Shown here: piece after piece, positions 3,517-39,313 of the stretch | Numbering within the stretch: position 1 is the first letter of the stretch | How the letters are laid out: the number at the start of each line of letters is the position of its first letter | IMG/VR virus record: IMGVR_UViG_3300024520_000193 | Span: 1-39,653 of that record | Reading direction: 5' to 3' (one strand) | Source of the DNA: a virus | Length of the DNA stretch: 39,653 bases | Notes under the pieces: model-generated | The model's database searches: none | Seen by the model: only the letters and a program-made list of their open reading frames with translations | Told to the model about the DNA's origin: nothing | Program-made: the position numbers and the translations under genes

Positions 3517-3714
3517 ATGAAGTACACGGAATTTGCAATGATCCAAAAAAGGAAGAAAGGATTTGTCACGGATTGGGCATACAAAGAAGGCGTATTTAAA
3601 ACGGGTGCAGGGGATTACATAGCCAGGATTAAGAAACACGGATATTTTACAACGCTATCCAGGCACGCCACAAAAAAGGCAGCGGAAAAAGTTTATAATG
3701 AGAATAAACAATGA
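3517..3714 (+). CDS. Small basic hypothetical protein (65 aa)
   Basis: A lysine-rich, compact protein (GDYIARIKKHGYFTTLSRH, then an alpha-helical end). It resembles small beta-strand plus helix DNA-binding folds in composition, but I cannot name a family. Its stop overlaps the start of the C5 methyltransferase (ATGA at 3711), so the two are probably co-translated. Confidence 0.6.
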   Translation: MKYTEFAMIQKRKKGFVTDWAYKEGVFKTGAGDYIARIKKHGYFTTLSRHATKKAAEKVYNENKQ

Positions 3715-4580
3715 AACACGGTTCGCTATTTTCAGGAATAGGGGGATTTGACTTAGCCGCTGAATGGATGGGATGGGAGAACGTCTTTCATTGTGAATGG
3801 AATGAATTTGGGCAACGGGTTTTAAAATATTATTGGCCTGATGCCGAATGTTTTACCGACATAACAAAAACAGATTTTAAAAAATATCATGCAGCAATTG
3901 ATATTATTTCAGGAGGATTTCCCTGCCAACCGTACAGCCACGCAGGAAAAAGACTTGGAACAGCAGATGACCGCCATCTCTGGCCGGAAATGCTTAGAGC
4001 AATACGGGAAATTCAGCCGCGCTACGTTGTGGGGGAAAATGTTAGTGGAATTGTTAGTTGGAATGGGGGATTGGTATTCCATGAAATCCAAACTGACTTG
4101 GAAGCTGAAGGGTACGAAGTACAACCGTTTATACTTCCAGCTGTTTCCGTCAATGCGCCACATAGAAGGGACAGAGTTTGGTTTGTTGCCAACAATAACT
4201 GCATCATTCGGGGAACGGGGAGGAATGATAAACCCGGAAAGCAATCACGACACGGAGAAAGCATTTTACGAACTACAGCAGAAAGGGTTACTTCCAACAC
4301 CGAATGCAAGCGATCACCCAGGGAAGAACACGGGGAAGAGAAAACAAGACAGCATACCGAAGAGAGTGAGGGATTCGGGTGGGAAAACTTCCCAACTGAA
4401 CCCCCTCTTCGTGGAAGAAATGATGGGATACCCAAAAAACTGGGTTCTATTACCTTTCCAAAATGGAGAAACGAAAGCATAAAAGCATACGGCAATGCAA
4501 TAGTGCCACAAGTAGCATTTCAGATTTTTAAAGCAATCCAGGAAATAGAAAATGGAACTATCAGTAAAAACAGAATTTAA
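3711..4580 (+). CDS. DNA (cytosine-5) methyltransferase
   Basis: A complete 289-residue C5 cytosine methyltransferase. It has motif I (GSLFSGIGGFDLAAE, residues 4-18), the motif IV catalytic loop GGFPCQPYSHAGKR with its Cys, motif VI VGENV, motif VIII RRDRVWFVA, a short target-recognition region, and motif X YGNAIVPQVAFQIFKAI. It transfers a methyl group to C5 of cytosine and most likely protects phage DNA from restriction. No partner restriction enzyme is visible. From the catalytic motif onward a second long frame is open in the same DNA (3889-4482). Confidence 0.95.
   Translation: MKHGSLFSGIGGFDLAAEWMGWENVFHCEWNEFGQRVLKYYWPDAECFTDITKTDFKKYHAAIDIISGGFPCQPYSHAGKRLGTADDRHLWPEMLRAIREIQPRYVVGENVSGIVSWNGGLVFHEIQTDLEAEGYEVQPFILPAVSVNAPHRRDRVWFVANNNCIIRGTGRNDKPGKQSRHGESILRTTAERVTSNTECKRSPREEHGEEKTRQHTEESEGFGWENFPTEPPLRGRNDGIPKKLGSITFPKWRNESIKAYGNAIVPQVAFQIFKAIQEIENGTISKNRI
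3889..4482 (+). CDS. Overlapping alternative-frame ORF inside the methyltransferase gene
   Basis: A 197-codon ORF with its own ATG lies wholly inside the methyltransferase gene in another + frame. It begins just before the PCQP catalytic motif. It contains LTWKLKGTKYNRLYFQLFPS, two LLPT motifs (GLLPTITAS, GLLPTPNASDHPG) and a C-terminal EEMMGYPKNWVLLPF. From memory, small phage and bacterial proteins with this same motif order occur next to or across C5 methylase genes, so it may be expressed. It could also be a by-product of strong constraint in the methyltransferase frame. No separate promoter is visible. Confidence 0.4.
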   Translation: MQQLILFQEDFPANRTATQEKDLEQQMTAISGRKCLEQYGKFSRATLWGKMLVELLVGMGDWYSMKSKLTWKLKGTKYNRLYFQLFPSMRHIEGTEFGLLPTITASFGERGGMINPESNHDTEKAFYELQQKGLLPTPNASDHPGKNTGKRKQDSIPKRVRDSGGKTSQLNPLFVEEMMGYPKNWVLLPFQNGETKA

Positions 4581-7041: not shown

Positions 7042-9249
7042 ATGACCTACGATGAATTTATTGCCAGCAAGCAAACCAAACTGCAAAAGTCAGGTTTCAC
7101 ACCTGAAAAACTAAATGATAATCTATTTCCTTTTCAGAAACATTGCGTAACAAAAGCACTTGAAGCAGGACGATATGCAATATTTTCAGATTGCGGCACA
7201 GGAAAGACGATAATGCAACTTGAATGGGCGCTCCAGGTGGCGATTAAAACCAAAAAGCCAGTATTGATACTTTGCCCATTGGCAGTTTCAGGGCAAACAA
7301 TTCAGGAGGGCGCGAAATTCGGAATTGAAATAGAGCGATGGAGCAAAGGAAATGAAGCAATGGCAACGGTAAATCATTTGCCGATGCTGATGATAGCGAA
7401 TTATGAAAAGATGGAGCATATTGCAACGGATATTTTTAGCGGGATTGTCCTGGACGAATCGAGTATTTTAAAAAACTTCACAGGAAAATACAAAAATTTG
7501 ATCATTGACCAATTTGCAAATACACCTTATAAACTTGCTTGCACCGCTACACCTGCACCAAATGACCTGAATGAAATTGGTAACCATTCAGAGTTTTTAA
7601 ATATCATGGAAGCACCCGATATGCGAATGCGATGGTTTGTTAGGGATGAAGGAATGAATAATTATAGGTTGAAAGGTCATGCTGAAATTGATTTTTTTGG
7701 ATGGATTGGAAGTTGGTCAACCGTATTAAGAACGCCAAAAGATATAGGGTTTGAAGGTGAAGGATATGACCTTCCACCGTTAAATATGGAAGAGTTTGAA
7801 ATTGAAACTTACAAAGCGGAAAATGGGAAATTATTTAATGATGTATCAGTAAATGCAACCAATTTCAATCAGGAATTGAGAAGGTCAAAAGTTGAGCGAT
7901 TGAATAAAGCAGCTGAATTAGCAAATAATTCAACCGAACCATTTATAATTTGGGTTAAACAAAATGAGGAAGCAGATTATATTAAAAAGTTAATTCCAGG
8001 ATCAGTAGAAGTAAGAGGAAATGACAAGCCTGAAATAAAAGAAAAGCATCTTTTGGGATTTGCAAACAATGACTTTCGGGTATTAATTACAAAAGCGAAG
8101 ATTGCCCAATTCGGGCTGAATTATCAAAACTGCAATAATCAAATATTTGCAAGTCTTGACTTCTCATTTGAAGGATTATACCAAGCAATTAGAAGATCGT
8201 ATCGTTTCGGGCAAAAGAACCAAGTTAATATCTATTTAATCACAACCGATACAATGCAAAATGTAATCGGTACAATTCGCGAAAAACAAGAAGCATTCGA
8301 TAATTTAATGACCAAAACCGTAAAATATGCAAACATGAAAGAAATTAAACTAAAATCAGACTACGAAAAGATCGAAGTAAAAACAGATGACTATCATTTA
8401 ATTCAGGGAGATTGTGTTGAATTAATCAAAGACGTTGAAACGGATAGTATTGATTTTAGTGTTTTTAGCCCTCCGTTTTCAACATTATTTACCTATTCAG
8501 ATAATATTAGGGATATGGGGAATTGTGTTTCAAATGATCAGTTTTTTGAGCAAACGGAATACCTTTTAAAGGAGCTTTATCGAATTATAAAACCGGGACG
8601 ATTAGTCGCAGTACATTCAAAGGATTTGGCAAAATATAAAGGAAGTTCAGGATATTCAGGAATGCACGATTTCACCGGAGAATATCATCGAGCAATGGAA
8701 GCGGCAGGTTTCAAATACCATTCAAAAATCACCATTTGGACTGATCCTGTACTGGAGATGCAACGAACCAAAACACAACGACTTTTGTATAAGACAATTA
8801 AAAGTGATAGCAGTTATACAGGAATAGGAATGCCGGAATATATTACTATTTTCAGGAAATGGGAGGGGAATACAGAAGATTGGACACCTATAAAATCATT
8901 AAACGCAAATAACTTCCCATTAGATACTTGGCAAAAGTGGGCAAGTCCTGTATGGATGGACATAAGGCGAACGGATGTATTAAATGGTTGGAGGAATGCA
9001 ACGATGGAAAAAGATGAAAAGCATATTTGTCCACTTCAAATAGGAGTGATTGAACGATGCGTTGCACTTTGGAGCAATGAGAGAGATACAGTATTTACGC
9101 CATTCATGGGAATTGGCAGCGAAATATACCAAGCCGTTAAAATGAACCGTAAAGGATTGGGATTTGAATTAAAAGAAAGCTATTTTCAGGCTGCAAAAAG
9201 TAATCTAAAAAGCGTAATTGCTGAAAAATCACAATTAGAATTATTTTGA
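7042..9249 (+). CDS. Fused SNF2-like helicase and N4/N6 DNA methylase
   Basis: A 735-residue two-domain protein. Residues 25-430 form a superfamily 2 helicase: Walker A DCGTGKT (50-56), DESS (138-141), TATPAPND (168-175) and the SNF2-type motif VI QAIRRSYRFGQ (381-391). Residues 450-730 form a beta-class DNA methylase with the catalytic SPPF (476-479) before the SAM-binding TPFMGIGSE (686-694) and GFELKESYF. SPPF is commonest in N4-cytosine enzymes but also occurs in N6-adenine enzymes, so the base is uncertain. A motor joined to a methylase recalls single-chain Type I-like or ISP systems, yet no nuclease domain is visible; it may modify DNA while translocating. It has its own promoter. Confidence 0.9.
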   Translation: MTYDEFIASKQTKLQKSGFTPEKLNDNLFPFQKHCVTKALEAGRYAIFSDCGTGKTIMQLEWALQVAIKTKKPVLILCPLAVSGQTIQEGAKFGIEIERWSKGNEAMATVNHLPMLMIANYEKMEHIATDIFSGIVLDESSILKNFTGKYKNLIIDQFANTPYKLACTATPAPNDLNEIGNHSEFLNIMEAPDMRMRWFVRDEGMNNYRLKGHAEIDFFGWIGSWSTVLRTPKDIGFEGEGYDLPPLNMEEFEIETYKAENGKLFNDVSVNATNFNQELRRSKVERLNKAAELANNSTEPFIIWVKQNEEADYIKKLIPGSVEVRGNDKPEIKEKHLLGFANNDFRVLITKAKIAQFGLNYQNCNNQIFASLDFSFEGLYQAIRRSYRFGQKNQVNIYLITTDTMQNVIGTIREKQEAFDNLMTKTVKYANMKEIKLKSDYEKIEVKTDDYHLIQGDCVELIKDVETDSIDFSVFSPPFSTLFTYSDNIRDMGNCVSNDQFFEQTEYLLKELYRIIKPGRLVAVHSKDLAKYKGSSGYSGMHDFTGEYHRAMEAAGFKYHSKITIWTDPVLEMQRTKTQRLLYKTIKSDSSYTGIGMPEYITIFRKWEGNTEDWTPIKSLNANNFPLDTWQKWASPVWMDIRRTDVLNGWRNATMEKDEKHICPLQIGVIERCVALWSNERDTVFTPFMGIGSEIYQAVKMNRKGLGFELKESYFQAAKSNLKSVIAEKSQLELF

Positions 9250-11326: not shown

Positions 11327-11671
11327 ATGAAATACTTTAAACCATCAGAATTCAGCGACTTTGATAAGATGGATAAAACCCTGTTATCTATGCTGGATGA
11401 CACACGAGAAGAATTAGGACTTCCGATTAGCTTAAATTCAAGCTATCGCAGTCCTGAACACCCAATAGAAGCCGCCAAAGACAAGCCAGGTGAACACACC
11501 TACGGGGCAGCAGTTGACGTAAAGTCACAAGGCGGTGAATACACCTTTAAACTGGTAAAAGCCGCAATCAAAGTAGGATTTACTCGCATAGGAATAAACC
11601 GAAAAAAGAACTTTGTTCATTTAGGTATCGGTTATTCAGGCGCAGCACCCGTCAGCATTTGGACGTATTAA
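11327..11671 (+). CDS. Endolysin, peptidase M15 family
   Basis: A 114-residue zinc peptidase domain of the M15 (D-Ala-D-Ala/L-Ala-D-Glu) type. The zinc and catalytic pattern is visible: SSYRSPEH near 38-45, then GEHTYGAAVDV with His57 and Asp64, and FVHLG with His98. It cuts peptide cross-bridges of the cell wall. No signal peptide is present, so it needs a holin. It is a single catalytic domain with no cell-wall binding part, a common form in phages of Gram-negative hosts. Confidence 0.85.
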   Translation: MKYFKPSEFSDFDKMDKTLLSMLDDTREELGLPISLNSSYRSPEHPIEAAKDKPGEHTYGAAVDVKSQGGEYTFKLVKAAIKVGFTRIGINRKKNFVHLGIGYSGAAPVSIWTY

Positions 11672-11907: not shown

Positions 11908-12064
11908 AAAAGAAGAAGCCAGGGAAGTAAAAAAAATCCTCAAATGGCAAGACACAAAAGGAATTAAATGTTTTGGCGACTTTTGGTTCGATGGCAAAAC
12001 AATATTAACGACAGCCGAAATGATTGACGCCTATATCGGTGACCTTTGGAATGAAAATAGTTGA
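11900..12064 (+). CDS. Small hypothetical protein (54 aa)
   Basis: ATG at 11900 in the end of the previous gene and stop TGA at 12062-12064 inside the next. A charged N-terminal helix is followed by GIKCFGDFWFDGKTILTT and AEMIDAYIGDLW. The double overlap (ATG of the ParB gene at 12051) argues that it is translated. Function unknown. Confidence 0.5.
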   Translation: MNEKEEAREVKKILKWQDTKGIKCFGDFWFDGKTILTTAEMIDAYIGDLWNENS

Positions 12065-12566
12065 GCGCAAAATAGCGGATTTAATACCATCCGAATACAA
12101 TCCGCGAACACTTACCGAGAAACAGCATGAAGACCTTGAAGCAAGCCTCAAAAGGTTTGGATTTATTGACCCTGCAATCATAAACAAGCACCCTGAAAGG
12201 AAAGATATTATAATCGGAGGACACCAACGCCTAAAAGTAGCGCAAGGAATAGGCATGGACAAAGTGCCAACGGTAGAACTAAAATTAACCCGAGACCAGG
12301 AGCGAGAATTGAATGTAAGATTGAATAAAAATACAGGAGAATTTGATTTTGAAATTCTTGCAAATGAATTTGAAGTAAACGAATTAAAAGATTGGGGTTT
12401 TACAGAACAAGAATTAAAAATATTTGAAGATGAAATTCCCCAAGACAATCGCGAAGCAATGGCGGATAGTTGGTTTTTAAACATAGAATTTACCAACGAA
12501 CAAGAATGCGAAGAATGGTATAATAAATTAATGGGCGAAAATTTACAAGTAAAAATAGTTCAATGA
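12051..12566 (+). CDS. ParB-like N-terminal domain protein
   Basis: About 171 residues. The N-terminal part matches the ParB/sulfiredoxin-like domain: IADLIPSEYNPRTLTEKQ, LEASLKRFGFIDPAI, then IIGGHQRLKVAQ with the characteristic GGHQR, and ELNVRLNKNTGEFD. In phages this domain often sits beside or is fused to DNA methylases and DNA-modifying enzymes and can bind or nick DNA with a nucleotide. No HTH for centromere binding is visible, so partitioning is unlikely. The ABC-GNAT gene follows with a four-base overlap. Confidence 0.85.
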   Translation: MKIVERKIADLIPSEYNPRTLTEKQHEDLEASLKRFGFIDPAIINKHPERKDIIIGGHQRLKVAQGIGMDKVPTVELKLTRDQERELNVRLNKNTGEFDFEILANEFEVNELKDWGFTEQELKIFEDEIPQDNREAMADSWFLNIEFTNEQECEEWYNKLMGENLQVKIVQ

Positions 12567-13683
12567 TACCGACCAAAATAGAAATAACATTAAAAAGCGA
12601 TGTTTTCAAAAATTTTCGGTGTAAAATGGCGGCTGATAGTTTGGATATTGATGTAGAAAAAAAATCAATTCATCATTTAGAAATAAATGACGTTAACTTG
12701 CCGAATGAATGGAATGTTGGAGTTGTTTATGGAAGTAGTGGCAGCGGCAAAACCACTATGATGCAGAAAATATTTGGGATGATTGTTTCAATTTTGAATT
12801 AAATGAGGATGAACCAATAATAAACCAATTACCAAAGGAATTAGAATATTCAGAATGTGCTTCAATTTTAAACGGTATACGATTAAATACCGTTCCATGT
12901 TGGGTTAGGCCAGTCAAAACATTGTCAAATGGACAAAAGGCGCGCGCCCATAGCGCATTGTTAATGACACTAAATGAAAAAGTGATAGTAATAGACGAGT
13001 GGACATCAGTAGTCGATAGGACGGTGGCAAAAGCCATGAGCCATTGTATTCAAAAATATGCCAAAAAGAAAAACAAAAAAATAATATTATGTACTTGCCA
13101 CTATGATATTATTGACTGGATAAATCCGGAATGGTTAATTGATTGTAATGAGCAAACATTTAAACTTCGGGAAAACGAAGATTTTTTTTTTAAAAGACGC
13201 GACAAACTCAAATTCGACATCAAACCCATTGGAAGGAAATCCTGGAAATATTTTAGCAAGTATCACTATTTAAGCGAAAACCTACCAGGTGGAGATTTAA
13301 TATTATTTGGATTGTTTTGTGATAATAAACAAATCGGATTTCAATGTTTTGCCAACTACACACCACATCGGAAGGGAACTAAAAAAATCTATCATTCTAA
13401 CAGAACAGTAATACATCCGGATTATAATGGGTTAGGATTGGGAATTATGTTAATCAATAAAACGTCCGAATTTTTAATAAAATCACGGAAATTTATTAAG
13501 ATAATGGCAAAATTTTCATCTGTACCTATCTACAAATCAATGATTAAGCAAAAAGAATGGGTATATTTGAAATCAATGAGAATGATGAAAGAAATGCCCA
13601 TGAGCGGAAATATGCACAGACGCGAAGGATATAGAGAAAAAGGAGTAAAAACGTATCATTTTCAATACGTTGGAAATAAATAA
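12563..13683 (+). CDS. ABC-ATPase fused to a GNAT (Mom-like?) domain, split by a -1 frameshift
   Basis: Two overlapping frames together make one protein of roughly 370 residues. The first frame (12563-12802) ends soon after Walker A GVVYGSSGSGKTT. Around 12764-12780 the sense passes to the -1 frame (ENIWDDCFNFELNEDE), which leads without a stop to the ABC signature LSNGQKARA, Walker B VIVIDEWTSVVD and the H-loop CTCHYDI. A GNAT domain follows (WKYFSKYHYLSENLPGGD, then acetyl-CoA-type motif VIHPDYNGLGLGIMLI). ABC-GNAT proteins beside ParB genes occur in phages, and the GNAT part recalls Mu Mom, which modifies adenine. The break may be a programmed shift, a mutation or a sequence error. No classic slippery heptamer is obvious. 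Confidence 0.75.
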
Positions 13684-13695
13684 AATTACACAGTC

Positions 13696-14022
13696 ATAAA
13701 AAAGCCAACAAACGATATTATTGAAAAGGCAGTTATCAAAGCTTTTGGAAACCTAACGGTTGCTTCAAAGTCATTAAGTTGTACCAGGAAAACACTTTAT
13801 TCGTGGATAGATGCCGCACCCGAATTATCTGATTGTGTGCAGGAAGGCCGAAACGGGATTTTGGATATGGCTGAAAACAAATTAGCAAGCAAAGTAAACG
13901 ATGGCGACACTACCGCAATAATCTTCACACTCAAAACCATAGGCCGCGAAAGGGGTTACATTGAGCGCAAAGAATGGGATGGAAATTTAAAGATTGATAA
14001 AATTGAAGTTGACATTGATTGA
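13696..14022 (+). CDS. Terminase small subunit-like protein, non-standard start
   Basis: The frame is open from the stop of the previous gene (13681-13683). Its first standard start codon is a GTG at 13837, inside the domain. Upstream codons clearly encode a helix-turn-helix (NLTVASKSLSCTRKTLYSWI) and continue into DAAPELSDCVQEGRN and TTAIIFTLKTIGRERGYIE, the usual small terminase/phage HTH pattern. The real start must therefore be upstream; the ATA at 13696 is the best candidate, which would be a rare start. The large subunit follows with a TTGA overlap. It recognises phage DNA for packaging. Confidence 0.65.
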   Translation: MKKPTNDIIEKAVIKAFGNLTVASKSLSCTRKTLYSWIDAAPELSDCVQEGRNGILDMAENKLASKVNDGDTTAIIFTLKTIGRERGYIERKEWDGNLKIDKIEVDID

Positions 14023-15272
14023 AATACACACGACCGCCACGAATAAACGCCTATCCCAAACAACGGGAATTCATTGATGATAATTCCAGGTATGTAATCG
14101 TTGAAGCCACTACAAAGGCGGGCAAGTCAGTTGGAATGCTGATATGGCTACTTGAACAGGCTTTACACGGAGAAGAAGGGCAGAACTTTTGGTGGATAGC
14201 ACCAGTTAGCAGCCAGGCTAAAATAATGTTCAAAAGGCTGAAACGGTTTATAAAGACCAAGCCTTTTTTTTCCACTAACGAAAGCGATTTATTTATAAAG
14301 TTAGGTAACGGGGCTGTTATTTGGTTTAAGTCAGCCGACAAGCCCGACAGCCTTTACGGTGACGATGTTCATGCAGCAGTTTTAGATGAGTTTACGAGGA
14401 TGAAGGAGGACGCCTGGTTTGCCATCCGGTCCACAGTAACAGCCACGAAAGGAAAGATTAGGTTTATTGGAAATGTCAAGGGAGTTAATAATTGGGGTTA
14501 CATGTTAGCGCGAATGGCTGAAAAAGGCCGTGAAGATTGGAAGTATTACAAGATAACAGCACAGGACGCTATCGATGCCAATGTTTTAACCGAAGCCGAA
14601 ATACAAGATGCCCGTGATGTTCTACCGCATGACGTTTTTTTAGAATTGTACTTTGCCATTCCCAACCAAAGCAAAAGTGATAGGTTTTGTTTTAGTTTTG
14701 AGAAGAAACGCCACGTTGGACAAACCAACGAAATGGCAGGGTACTACTACCTTTCCTTTGATTTTAATTACAATCCTATTTGCTGTTCAATCTTCCAACA
14801 CGATCACCAGGTAATTCAATGCCTGGAAACAATCAAGCTACCAAACAGCGACATTTATAAGTTGTGTGACGTGATTTTAAATAAATACCCCGGGAAGCCT
14901 TTTATAGTAAACGGGGATTATTCAGGCGTTGCCAAATTAGGAATAGTACAGGATAACGTTAATTACTACCAAATCATTCAATCTAAATTAGAACTAAGAA
15001 ACACAGCTATTCAGATAGTTCCAAATCCGTCATTAGCTGAAAATCAAGTGTTGGTTAATGGCATATTGGAACACAAAACCGTAATCTTAGACGAACACAA
15101 AGCACAGGATTTAATCTATGACTGCGAAAACGTCAGCATGTCCAATGAAAAGAAGATTATCAAAACCGACCGAAGCGACCCAACACAACAGGCCGATGCG
15201 CTTGATACATTCAGGTACTTTTTAAACAAGAATTTTAGCGGTTGGCAAGGGCAACAATTACGGGCAGCATAA
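14019..15272 (+). CDS. terL: Terminase large subunit
   Basis: A 417-residue packaging motor and headful/cos nuclease. The ATPase part has Walker A ATTKAGKS (30-37), Walker B AAVLDEF (119-125) and a C-motif FIGN near 149-152. The RNase H-like nuclease shows its acidic residues in LSFDFNYNP (Asp248), VNGDYSG (Asp300) and QADALDTFRYF (Asp393/396). It starts at TTG within a TTGA overlap with the small subunit. It is short for the family but complete. Substrate is the replicated phage DNA; it docks on the portal. Confidence 0.93.
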   Translation: MKYTRPPRINAYPKQREFIDDNSRYVIVEATTKAGKSVGMLIWLLEQALHGEEGQNFWWIAPVSSQAKIMFKRLKRFIKTKPFFSTNESDLFIKLGNGAVIWFKSADKPDSLYGDDVHAAVLDEFTRMKEDAWFAIRSTVTATKGKIRFIGNVKGVNNWGYMLARMAEKGREDWKYYKITAQDAIDANVLTEAEIQDARDVLPHDVFLELYFAIPNQSKSDRFCFSFEKKRHVGQTNEMAGYYYLSFDFNYNPICCSIFQHDHQVIQCLETIKLPNSDIYKLCDVILNKYPGKPFIVNGDYSGVAKLGIVQDNVNYYQIIQSKLELRNTAIQIVPNPSLAENQVLVNGILEHKTVILDEHKAQDLIYDCENVSMSNEKKIIKTDRSDPTQQADALDTFRYFLNKNFSGWQGQQLRAA

Positions 15273-38296: not shown

Positions 38297-38457
38297 AACG
38301 CCAGCACCAACACCCGGAACTAAAAAAGAAAATTGAAGAATTAAGCGTTCACCACAAAATGGGTATCGAATGGTGGTGGGAGTTTAATAATGTTTTAGAC
38401 AAGGCTTTAACAGGATATAAAAGGGTAATTGAAACGATGAAAATTCCTAATGAGTAA
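38293..38457 (+). CDS. Small hypothetical protein, complete copy (54 aa)
   Basis: The whole gene of which 1-164 is the 3' part. ATG at 38293 in an ATGA overlap, stop at 38455-38457. Compared with the first copy it lacks five codons. It contains GIEWWWEFNNVLDKAL. The next gene starts inside its last codons. Confidence 0.6.
   Translation: MKRQHQHPELKKKIEELSVHHKMGIEWWWEFNNVLDKALTGYKRVIETMKIPNE
38309..38410 (+). repeat. 102-bp copy of the window start
   Basis: Positions 38309-38410 are identical to 1-102. After that the copies differ by a 15-base indel and resume. Together with 39527-39653 it shows that the window runs past the starting point of a circular map. Confidence 0.85.
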
Positions 38458-39313
38458 CACTAACCCGTCTTTTTTTTCTCTTGGAGTTGGAGTACAGAGT
38501 AGTGCTATGTATTTCATGGCATCATTAGGAATGTTCCCGGTAAAACCACAAGCAGCCATCTTCGCTGATCCGGGCCGGGAGAGAAAAGAAACCTACGAGT
38601 ATTTTGAGTACATGGTACAATGGCAGCAAGAGAATACTGGTATTCCTATTTACAGGCGTAGTCATGGAAACCTGTTTGAGGATATGATGAACAATAGCAA
38701 CACCACCGGCCACAGGATTGCATCTATACCAGCCTATACTTCTAACGGTGCAGGACAGAAAGAAGGCGCTCTCAGGAGGCAGTGTACGAACGAATACAAG
38801 ATAATGGTAGTGGATGCTAAGATGAGAGAGTTGTTAGGCCTAAAGCCACGACAACGATGGAAGCCAATTAATGTATGGATAGGAATAACTACAGATGAAG
38901 CCATGAGGATGAAAGTTCCCCAAGAGAAGTGGAGAACAATGGTCTATCCCTTTTGTCAGTATGCTTCTTCGGTAGAGACACCATCGAAGAGGCTTATAGA
39001 CTGGCCACGAGCCATGAGCCGAAACGGAGTAATAACCTGGTTAAAAGAAAACGGATTTAAGATTCCACCAAAGAGCAGTTGTACCTTTTGTCCTTATCAC
39101 GGAGACTCTACTTGGAAAGACATCAAAAAGAATGACCCAGAAGAATGGAAAGCAATAGTAAAGGTAGATAACCAGATCAGGAACTCCACCAAGAGAGGAA
39201 TCCAACAACCTATCTTTCTTCACCGGAGTTGTAAGGCGATAAGCGAAGTAGATTTTGGGGAGAACCAGGGAGATCTATTTGATAACTGTGATTCAGGTTA
39301 TTGTTTTTTGTGA
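38450..39313 (+). CDS. PAPS-reductase-like (adenine nucleotide alpha-hydrolase fold) protein, optional gene
   Basis: 287 residues of a family common in phages. It has the PP-loop-type start SLGVGVQSSAM (10-20), AAIFADPGRERKETYEYFEY, LRRQCTNEYKI, GITTDEAMRMK, and SSCTFCPYHG with a possible iron-sulfur or zinc CxxC. The fold cleaves ATP alpha-beta bonds as in PAPS reductase or DndC-type enzymes; the role of the phage family is unknown, with sulfur or base modification suggested. The gene is absent from the same locus at the start of the window, so it is an accessory gene. By eye it is less A-rich than its neighbours, consistent with transfer. Confidence 0.85.
   Translation: MSNTNPSFFSLGVGVQSSAMYFMASLGMFPVKPQAAIFADPGRERKETYEYFEYMVQWQQENTGIPIYRRSHGNLFEDMMNNSNTTGHRIASIPAYTSNGAGQKEGALRRQCTNEYKIMVVDAKMRELLGLKPRQRWKPINVWIGITTDEAMRMKVPQEKWRTMVYPFCQYASSVETPSKRLIDWPRAMSRNGVITWLKENGFKIPPKSSCTFCPYHGDSTWKDIKKNDPEEWKAIVKVDNQIRNSTKRGIQQPIFLHRSCKAISEVDFGENQGDLFDNCDSGYCFL

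Follow-up and report, generated by a model that had tools for sequence, protein, structure and literature searches.

A ParB-like gene and a gene joining an ABC-type ATPase to a GNAT domain form a real and conserved phage module that probably serves DNA modification of a kind already predicted. We favor the reading that this is a phage DNA-modification cassette, in which ParB loads the system, the ABC ATPase acts on DNA, and the GNAT domain acylates a base, with late timing and a protective outcome; taken as a whole, we consider this reading fairly likely. DNA modification is the best-supported function because the ParB partner is swapped with Mom and with DNA methyltransferases. The data behind it are the domains, the intact motifs in relatives, the conserved pairing, fusions, and the sharing of a partner with Mom and DNA methyltransferases. 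The cassette was analyzed in a viral IMG/VR record, IMGVR_UViG_3300024520_000193 (positions 1 to 39,653, one strand); this whole stretch of 39,653 nucleotides is referred to here as the window. The features of interest are as follows.

12051..12566, + strand: ParB-like gene (ATG at 12051, stop ending at 12566; 171 aa)
12563..12802, + strand: first piece of the ABC-GNAT gene, with the N-terminal part and Walker A, in frame 2 (PHROG 11143 positions 2-65, 1.6e-9)
12731..12757, + strand: Walker A, GSSGSGKTT, from the translation; invariant in relatives
12768..12790, no strand: reading-frame change by one base; relatives have a single frame here
12769..13203, + strand: remainder of the ABC ATPase in the second frame, from the translation (PHROG 11143, 2.6e-60)
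12922-12945, + strand: ABC signature, LSNGQKAR, from the translation
about 12982-13002, + strand: Walker B, from the translation
about 13099-13101, + strand: H-loop His, from the translation
13204..13683, + strand: GNAT domain (AlphaFold2, Foldseek, and the HY motif)
about 13264-13269, + strand: HY motif in the GNAT domain
about 13423-13443, + strand: acyl-CoA loop, YNGLGLG, in the GNAT domain
14019..15272, + strand: terminase large subunit, the conserved downstream context (PHROG 2, 2.5e-33)

The first-pass annotation of this DNA had placed the ParB-like gene in overlap with the ABC-GNAT gene, just upstream of terminase, and both points hold. The ParB stop overlaps the next ATG, at 12563, in a 4-nt ATGA, and the gene for the terminase large subunit follows at 14019-15272. 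The accompanying description of an ABC-type ATPase joined to a GNAT domain is borne out by the domains, the motifs, and the family: both halves hit PHROG 11143 (2.6e-60 and 1.6e-9), which spans 357 positions, groups ABC-GNAT proteins, and has no known function. In the window, however, the two halves do not lie in one open frame. The gene runs from 12563 to 12802 in frame 2 and then from about 12769 to 13683 in frame 1, with a one-base frame change right behind the P-loop (Walker A). Relatives that reach this point have one uninterrupted frame of about 365-400 aa, and programmed frameshifting was ruled out because full-length relatives do not shift. The 253 codons 3' of the break read cleanly, and almost all of that length aligns to relatives with up to 67% identity, which speaks against an old pseudogene. 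The frame change is either a genuine, recent event or an error in the sequence, and the window copy may be inactive unless the latter applies. A few relatives are split at other places (L050, L070-L072), and in Lactococcus P335 the ABC and GNAT parts are separate adjacent genes.

The window ParB has a ParB/Srx CTPase-fold N-terminal domain with the Box-II sequence GGHQR, followed by a short C-terminal part. Pfam ParB_N (PF02195) is detected at 6.5e-9, above its cut-off, and ParB_N together with the Box-II arginine marks the protein as a ParB-fold NTP-binding module. Among 141 relatives, the Box-II glycine is conserved at 1.00 and the arginine at 0.87. Other matches of this ParB are to PHROG 498 (ParB-methyltransferase; 3.4e-34), PHROG 620 (9.8e-32), and PADLOC MTase_II (6.8e-22). 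For the ABC half, the motifs are intact in relatives (Walker A GASGSGKTT, signature LSNGQKAR, Walker B with DE, D-loop SVVDR, and H-loop SCHYD). The AlphaFold2 model of a full-length relative reached a pLDDT of 84, and Foldseek matched the L002 homologue to ABC ATPase domains at 1e-8.

Public annotations would instead make these genes an ABC transporter and a partition protein, through ParB labels and the automatic name “ABC iron siderophore transporter,” which is attached to ABC-GNAT pieces in Streptococcus and Oenococcus phage records (H15-H19). We find that combination hardly credible. ABC-GNAT has no membrane segment (the highest 19-aa hydropathy is 1.0) and carries a GNAT domain fused in cis, and neither a permease nor a ParA-like family was found among its conserved neighbors. 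The window ParB, at 171 aa, consists of ParB_N without an HTH or a C-terminal dimerisation domain, and so differs from the ParB of a ParABS system. The siderophore label is probably a misannotation. Domain content led us to reject ordinary RM, transporter, and partition readings, and the neighborhood gave no support to a toxin-antitoxin reading.

Searches turned up 236 relatives in viral contigs, as well as 51 phage records, and these numbers, together with the conservation of the gene pair, exclude chance. The survey of ParB and ABC-GNAT neighbors that the first-pass annotation had suggested shows the pair to be kept: ParB lies directly upstream, with overlap, at 71 of the 73 viral loci having enough sequence and, under a strict criterion, at 59 of 77 loci in bacterial genomes. 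At two planctomycete loci, L270 (4275-6113; 613 aa) and L286 (4332-6164; 611 aa), ParB, ABC, and GNAT occupy one ORF. Distances among the ParBs and among the ABC-GNATs correlate beyond terminase (partial Mantel r 0.68, 0/2000 permutations). Some carriers of ABC-GNAT, namely pT24 and P12024S, have no recognisable ParB.

A terminase profile was found downstream of ABC-GNAT at 52 of the 73 viral loci. No other conserved downstream neighbor is as frequent as terminase (94 loci), and apart from ParB the frequent neighbors are confined to the terminase large subunit and to short proteins resembling the small one. This placement could mean that the cassette modifies DNA to mark packaging or regulatory sites, rather than to counter restriction; phage P1, for example, requires Dam methylation at pac (PMC12707154). 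Such a role is distinctly unlikely, as the MenE Mom-type pair sits among replication genes, away from terminase, and Mom shields DNA from restriction (PMC6483171). An ASCH-like protein was also considered as a conserved neighbor and rejected, since nearly the whole cluster consisted of a short KGQSGNP-type protein, encoded immediately ahead of TerL, that is probably the terminase small subunit. At one locus only (L072), a 251-aa ORF after the ABC-GNAT genes apparently joins an ASCH-like stretch to a terminase-small-like protein. The window also encodes a Peptidase M15-type putative endolysin at 11327-11671 (+; PF08291, 3.9e-12).

The company kept by this ParB is the evidence that bears most directly on function. 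A profile of the ABC-type ParB, built from ABC-GNAT loci only, gave a median of 3.5e-40 for its own members, 4e-37 for the ParB beside MenE-type Mom, and 7.5e-34 for the ParB fused to N6/N4 methyltransferases. MenE-type Mom belongs to PF25680 proper (1.2e-46), and its loci have ParB upstream in 66 of 71 cases by strict count and somewhere in the locus in 71/71. For the methyltransferases, a ParB in Bacteroides BS-TP3 overlaps a ParB-methyltransferase followed by terminase genes, and in Streptococcus Javan316 a ParB-methyltransferase fusion precedes terminase. The ParB tree, in which many branches are weakly supported, shows about 18 changes of partner label (minimum 2; 33 after shuffling), which makes repeated exchange of partners probable. 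At L121:2969-4121 and L136-L215, ParB overlaps a bona fide Mom-like gene; the ParBs of these loci end in a conserved CPxC zinc-knuckle-like motif, which is absent among the conserved positions of ABC-type ParBs.

Related arrangements have been described by others. The survey by Kaljevic et al. 2025 includes phage ParB-fold fusions to methyltransferases and one bacterial fusion of ParB to an acetyltransferase, which binds GTP (PMC12704722). A precedent comes from the 7-deazaguanine DNA system, where dPreQ0 enters DNA through the action of DpdB, a ParB-like ATPase (PMC12839542). A single ParB-fold subfamily may serve three chemically distinct phage DNA-modifying enzymes (N6/N4 methyltransferase, Mom, and ABC-GNAT) as an interchangeable subunit that targets or loads them, with ABC-GNAT making an undescribed acylated DNA base; we offer this broader proposal tentatively and give it somewhat less than an even chance. 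The window itself encodes two further DNA methyltransferases, a sign that DNA modification takes up a large share of this phage's effort. One is a C5-cytosine DNA methyltransferase at 3711-4580 (+; PF00145 1.7e-46; PHROG 363), and the other, at 7042-9249 (+), is a 735-aa protein in which a DEAD/SNF2-type helicase is joined to an N6/N4 DNA methyltransferase domain. A PAPS-reductase-like protein, of a superfamily that includes DndC, is encoded at 38450-39313 (+; PHROG 424, 2.1e-36).

The GNAT domain itself had been likened to Mu Mom, of the family that makes methylcarbamoyl-adenine in DNA, and the structural comparison set beforehand for that idea went against it. The AlphaFold2 model of the window GNAT (pLDDT 88.1, pTM 0.80) has as its nearest solved folds in the PDB the ordinary GNATs SpeG, NAA60, and RimI-like proteins (Foldseek E about 7e-6, TM about 0.6). 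Solved Mom (8bv8) was absent from the best 50 Foldseek PDB matches, all of which were ordinary GNATs, and in the BFVD viral structure library Mom proteins came 8th (TM 0.62) and 12th among other GNATs. Against the Pfam Mom family PF25680, which has a curated cut-off of 27.1 bits, the window scored 14.8 bits (E 0.023), below that cut-off; 18 of 31 relatives match the family, with a best E of only 0.0063. A profile comparison with Mu Mom from one sequence was uninformative (probability 0.1%). A 43-sequence profile of the GNAT part of ABC-GNATs against 11 diverse Moms reached 66% (E 5.6e-5), with the HY and NR motifs aligned. When sets of 20 sequences were matched for ABC-GNAT, RimI, RimL-like, and Mom, ABC-GNAT gave 94% with RimI (1e-7), 54% with RimL-like, and 10.8% with Mom (2.8e-3); Mom with RimI or RimL gave 0.2%.

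These matches fall on different parts of the ABC-GNAT profile, with Mom aligning on the substrate side and RimI on the acyl-CoA side. Nearly all ABC-GNATs (162/163) and all Moms (93/93) carry HY, as against 1/25 RimI and 1/21 RimL sequences (2/46 controls), and the NR arginine, on the substrate side, is invariant in relatives. The canonical GxGxG-type acyl-CoA loop is kept by most ABC-GNATs and lost in Mom. Near the C-terminus, Mom has a near-invariant SFAD...Y.A.N (S136/F137/A138/D139, Y149, N153); the SFAD motif is not present in ABC-GNAT, which has KFSS.P.YKAM there instead, itself not invariant. We conclude that the GNAT of ABC-GNAT is ordinary on the side of the cofactor, resembles Mom on the side of the substrate, and lies outside the Mom family. 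The proposed likeness to Mom is accordingly narrowed to the HY and NR motifs, with the Pfam score, the acyl-CoA loop, and the missing SFAD on the other side. The proposal of a DNA modification module, which came with it, still draws support from the swapping of partners with Mom and methyltransferases.

The position of the GNAT fold and its acyl-CoA loop, nearer to protein and small-molecule GNATs, counts against DNA acylation. The domain could instead acetylate a protein, such as host RNA polymerase, a nucleoid protein, or ParB itself, which would make the cassette a host-takeover or packaging-control device. The nearest solved folds are indeed protein and polyamine acetyltransferases (NAA60, SpeG, RimI), the profile match to RimI is better than that to Mom, and PMC7824862 cites acetylation of RNA polymerase by phage Rac. 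A protein target is nevertheless unlikely: the HY signature is common to Mom and nearly absent from the RimI and RimL sets, the ParB partner is also used by DNA-modifying enzymes, and we see no reason why an enzyme acting on proteins should require an ABC ATPase together with ParB. Very improbable, in turn, is acylation of RNA or tRNA in the manner of TmcA/NAT10 or GNAT toxins. In favor of such a target, TmcA/NAT10 is an ATP-dependent enzyme that likewise pairs a GNAT with an ATPase and has a base as the acceptor of its acetyl group, and NAT10 appeared among the weak profile matches (E about 1.2). However, no RNA-binding or toxin-antitoxin gene was found among the conserved neighbors, and the ParB family associates with DNA methyltransferases and Mom.

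If the cassette modifies DNA, as we favor, ParB would bind nucleotide and DNA and load or position its ABC-GNAT partner. The ABC dimer would spend ATP to open or hold DNA, with no transport role, and the GNAT would move an acyl group from acyl-CoA to the exocyclic amino group of a DNA base. This would take place late, shortly before or next to packaging, and the most likely outcome would be a genome protected from host nucleases. In this scheme we infer that DNA is the substrate, which molecule donates the acyl group, what the two NTPases do, and that the modification guards against restriction. Operon neighbors indicate shared context, not chemistry, and we know of no modified nucleoside from any ABC-GNAT carrier.

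The first-pass annotation saw no clear described function for the system. This is correct for experiments, since the literature yielded none on DNA-base acylation by ABC-GNAT, which is published as a prediction only. It is not correct for predictions. Iyer et al. 2021 (PMC7824862) state that their 2013 paper predicted a GNAT coupled to an ABC ATPase to modify a DNA base with an acyl group in an uncharacterised reaction; the core idea is already published as a prediction, reached independently of the present evidence. The same article names phage pT24 as an ABC-GNAT example, and pT24 carries homologues found in our searches (E 4e-18). To this we add an overlapping ParB partner that is nearly universal, its fusions, and its being common to Mom and methyltransferases, and the link that this shared ParB draws from ABC-GNAT to those enzymes may be new. 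The cassette is widespread, in hundreds of viral contigs and in bacterial genomes from planctomycetes to actinobacteria. It is carried by cultured phages, such as Leptospira phage LE4 (on the non-pathogenic L. biflexa Patoc), Nonlabens phage P12024S, and Lactococcus phage P335, and undescribed DNA base chemistry is therefore directly testable. Should ParB prove to be a shared subunit, a single mechanism would join methyltransferases, Mom, and ABC-GNAT, and many phage “partition” and “iron transporter” annotations would be accounted for.

Several known systems can be set beside this cassette. The ABC-GNAT system of Iyer et al. (2013, 2021; PMC7824862) has the same domain pair and a homologous member in pT24, but here there is a ParB-like partner, the genes adjoin terminase, and the window copy is interrupted. 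DpdB (PMC12839542) is likewise a ParB-fold NTPase serving a DNA-modifying enzyme; we noticed nothing homologous to its TGT (DpdA) in the ParB-ABC-GNAT cassette, and the likeness is by ParB fold. Mu Mom and Mom-like proteins (PF25680, PHROG 1384, PDB 8bv8) share the GNAT superfamily and the aligned HY and NR motifs, and one large Mom clade has the same kind of ParB overlapping upstream. Unlike Mom, ABC-GNAT has the acyl-CoA glycine loop and an ABC ATPase, does without the SFAD motif, and scores under the Mom cut-off. The phage ParB-fold-DNA methyltransferase fusions (PMC12704722; PHROG 498) use the same ParB subfamily and also lie just upstream of terminase, but their catalytic partner is a SAM methyltransferase that is usually fused to ParB, whereas ABC-GNAT is usually adjacent to it.
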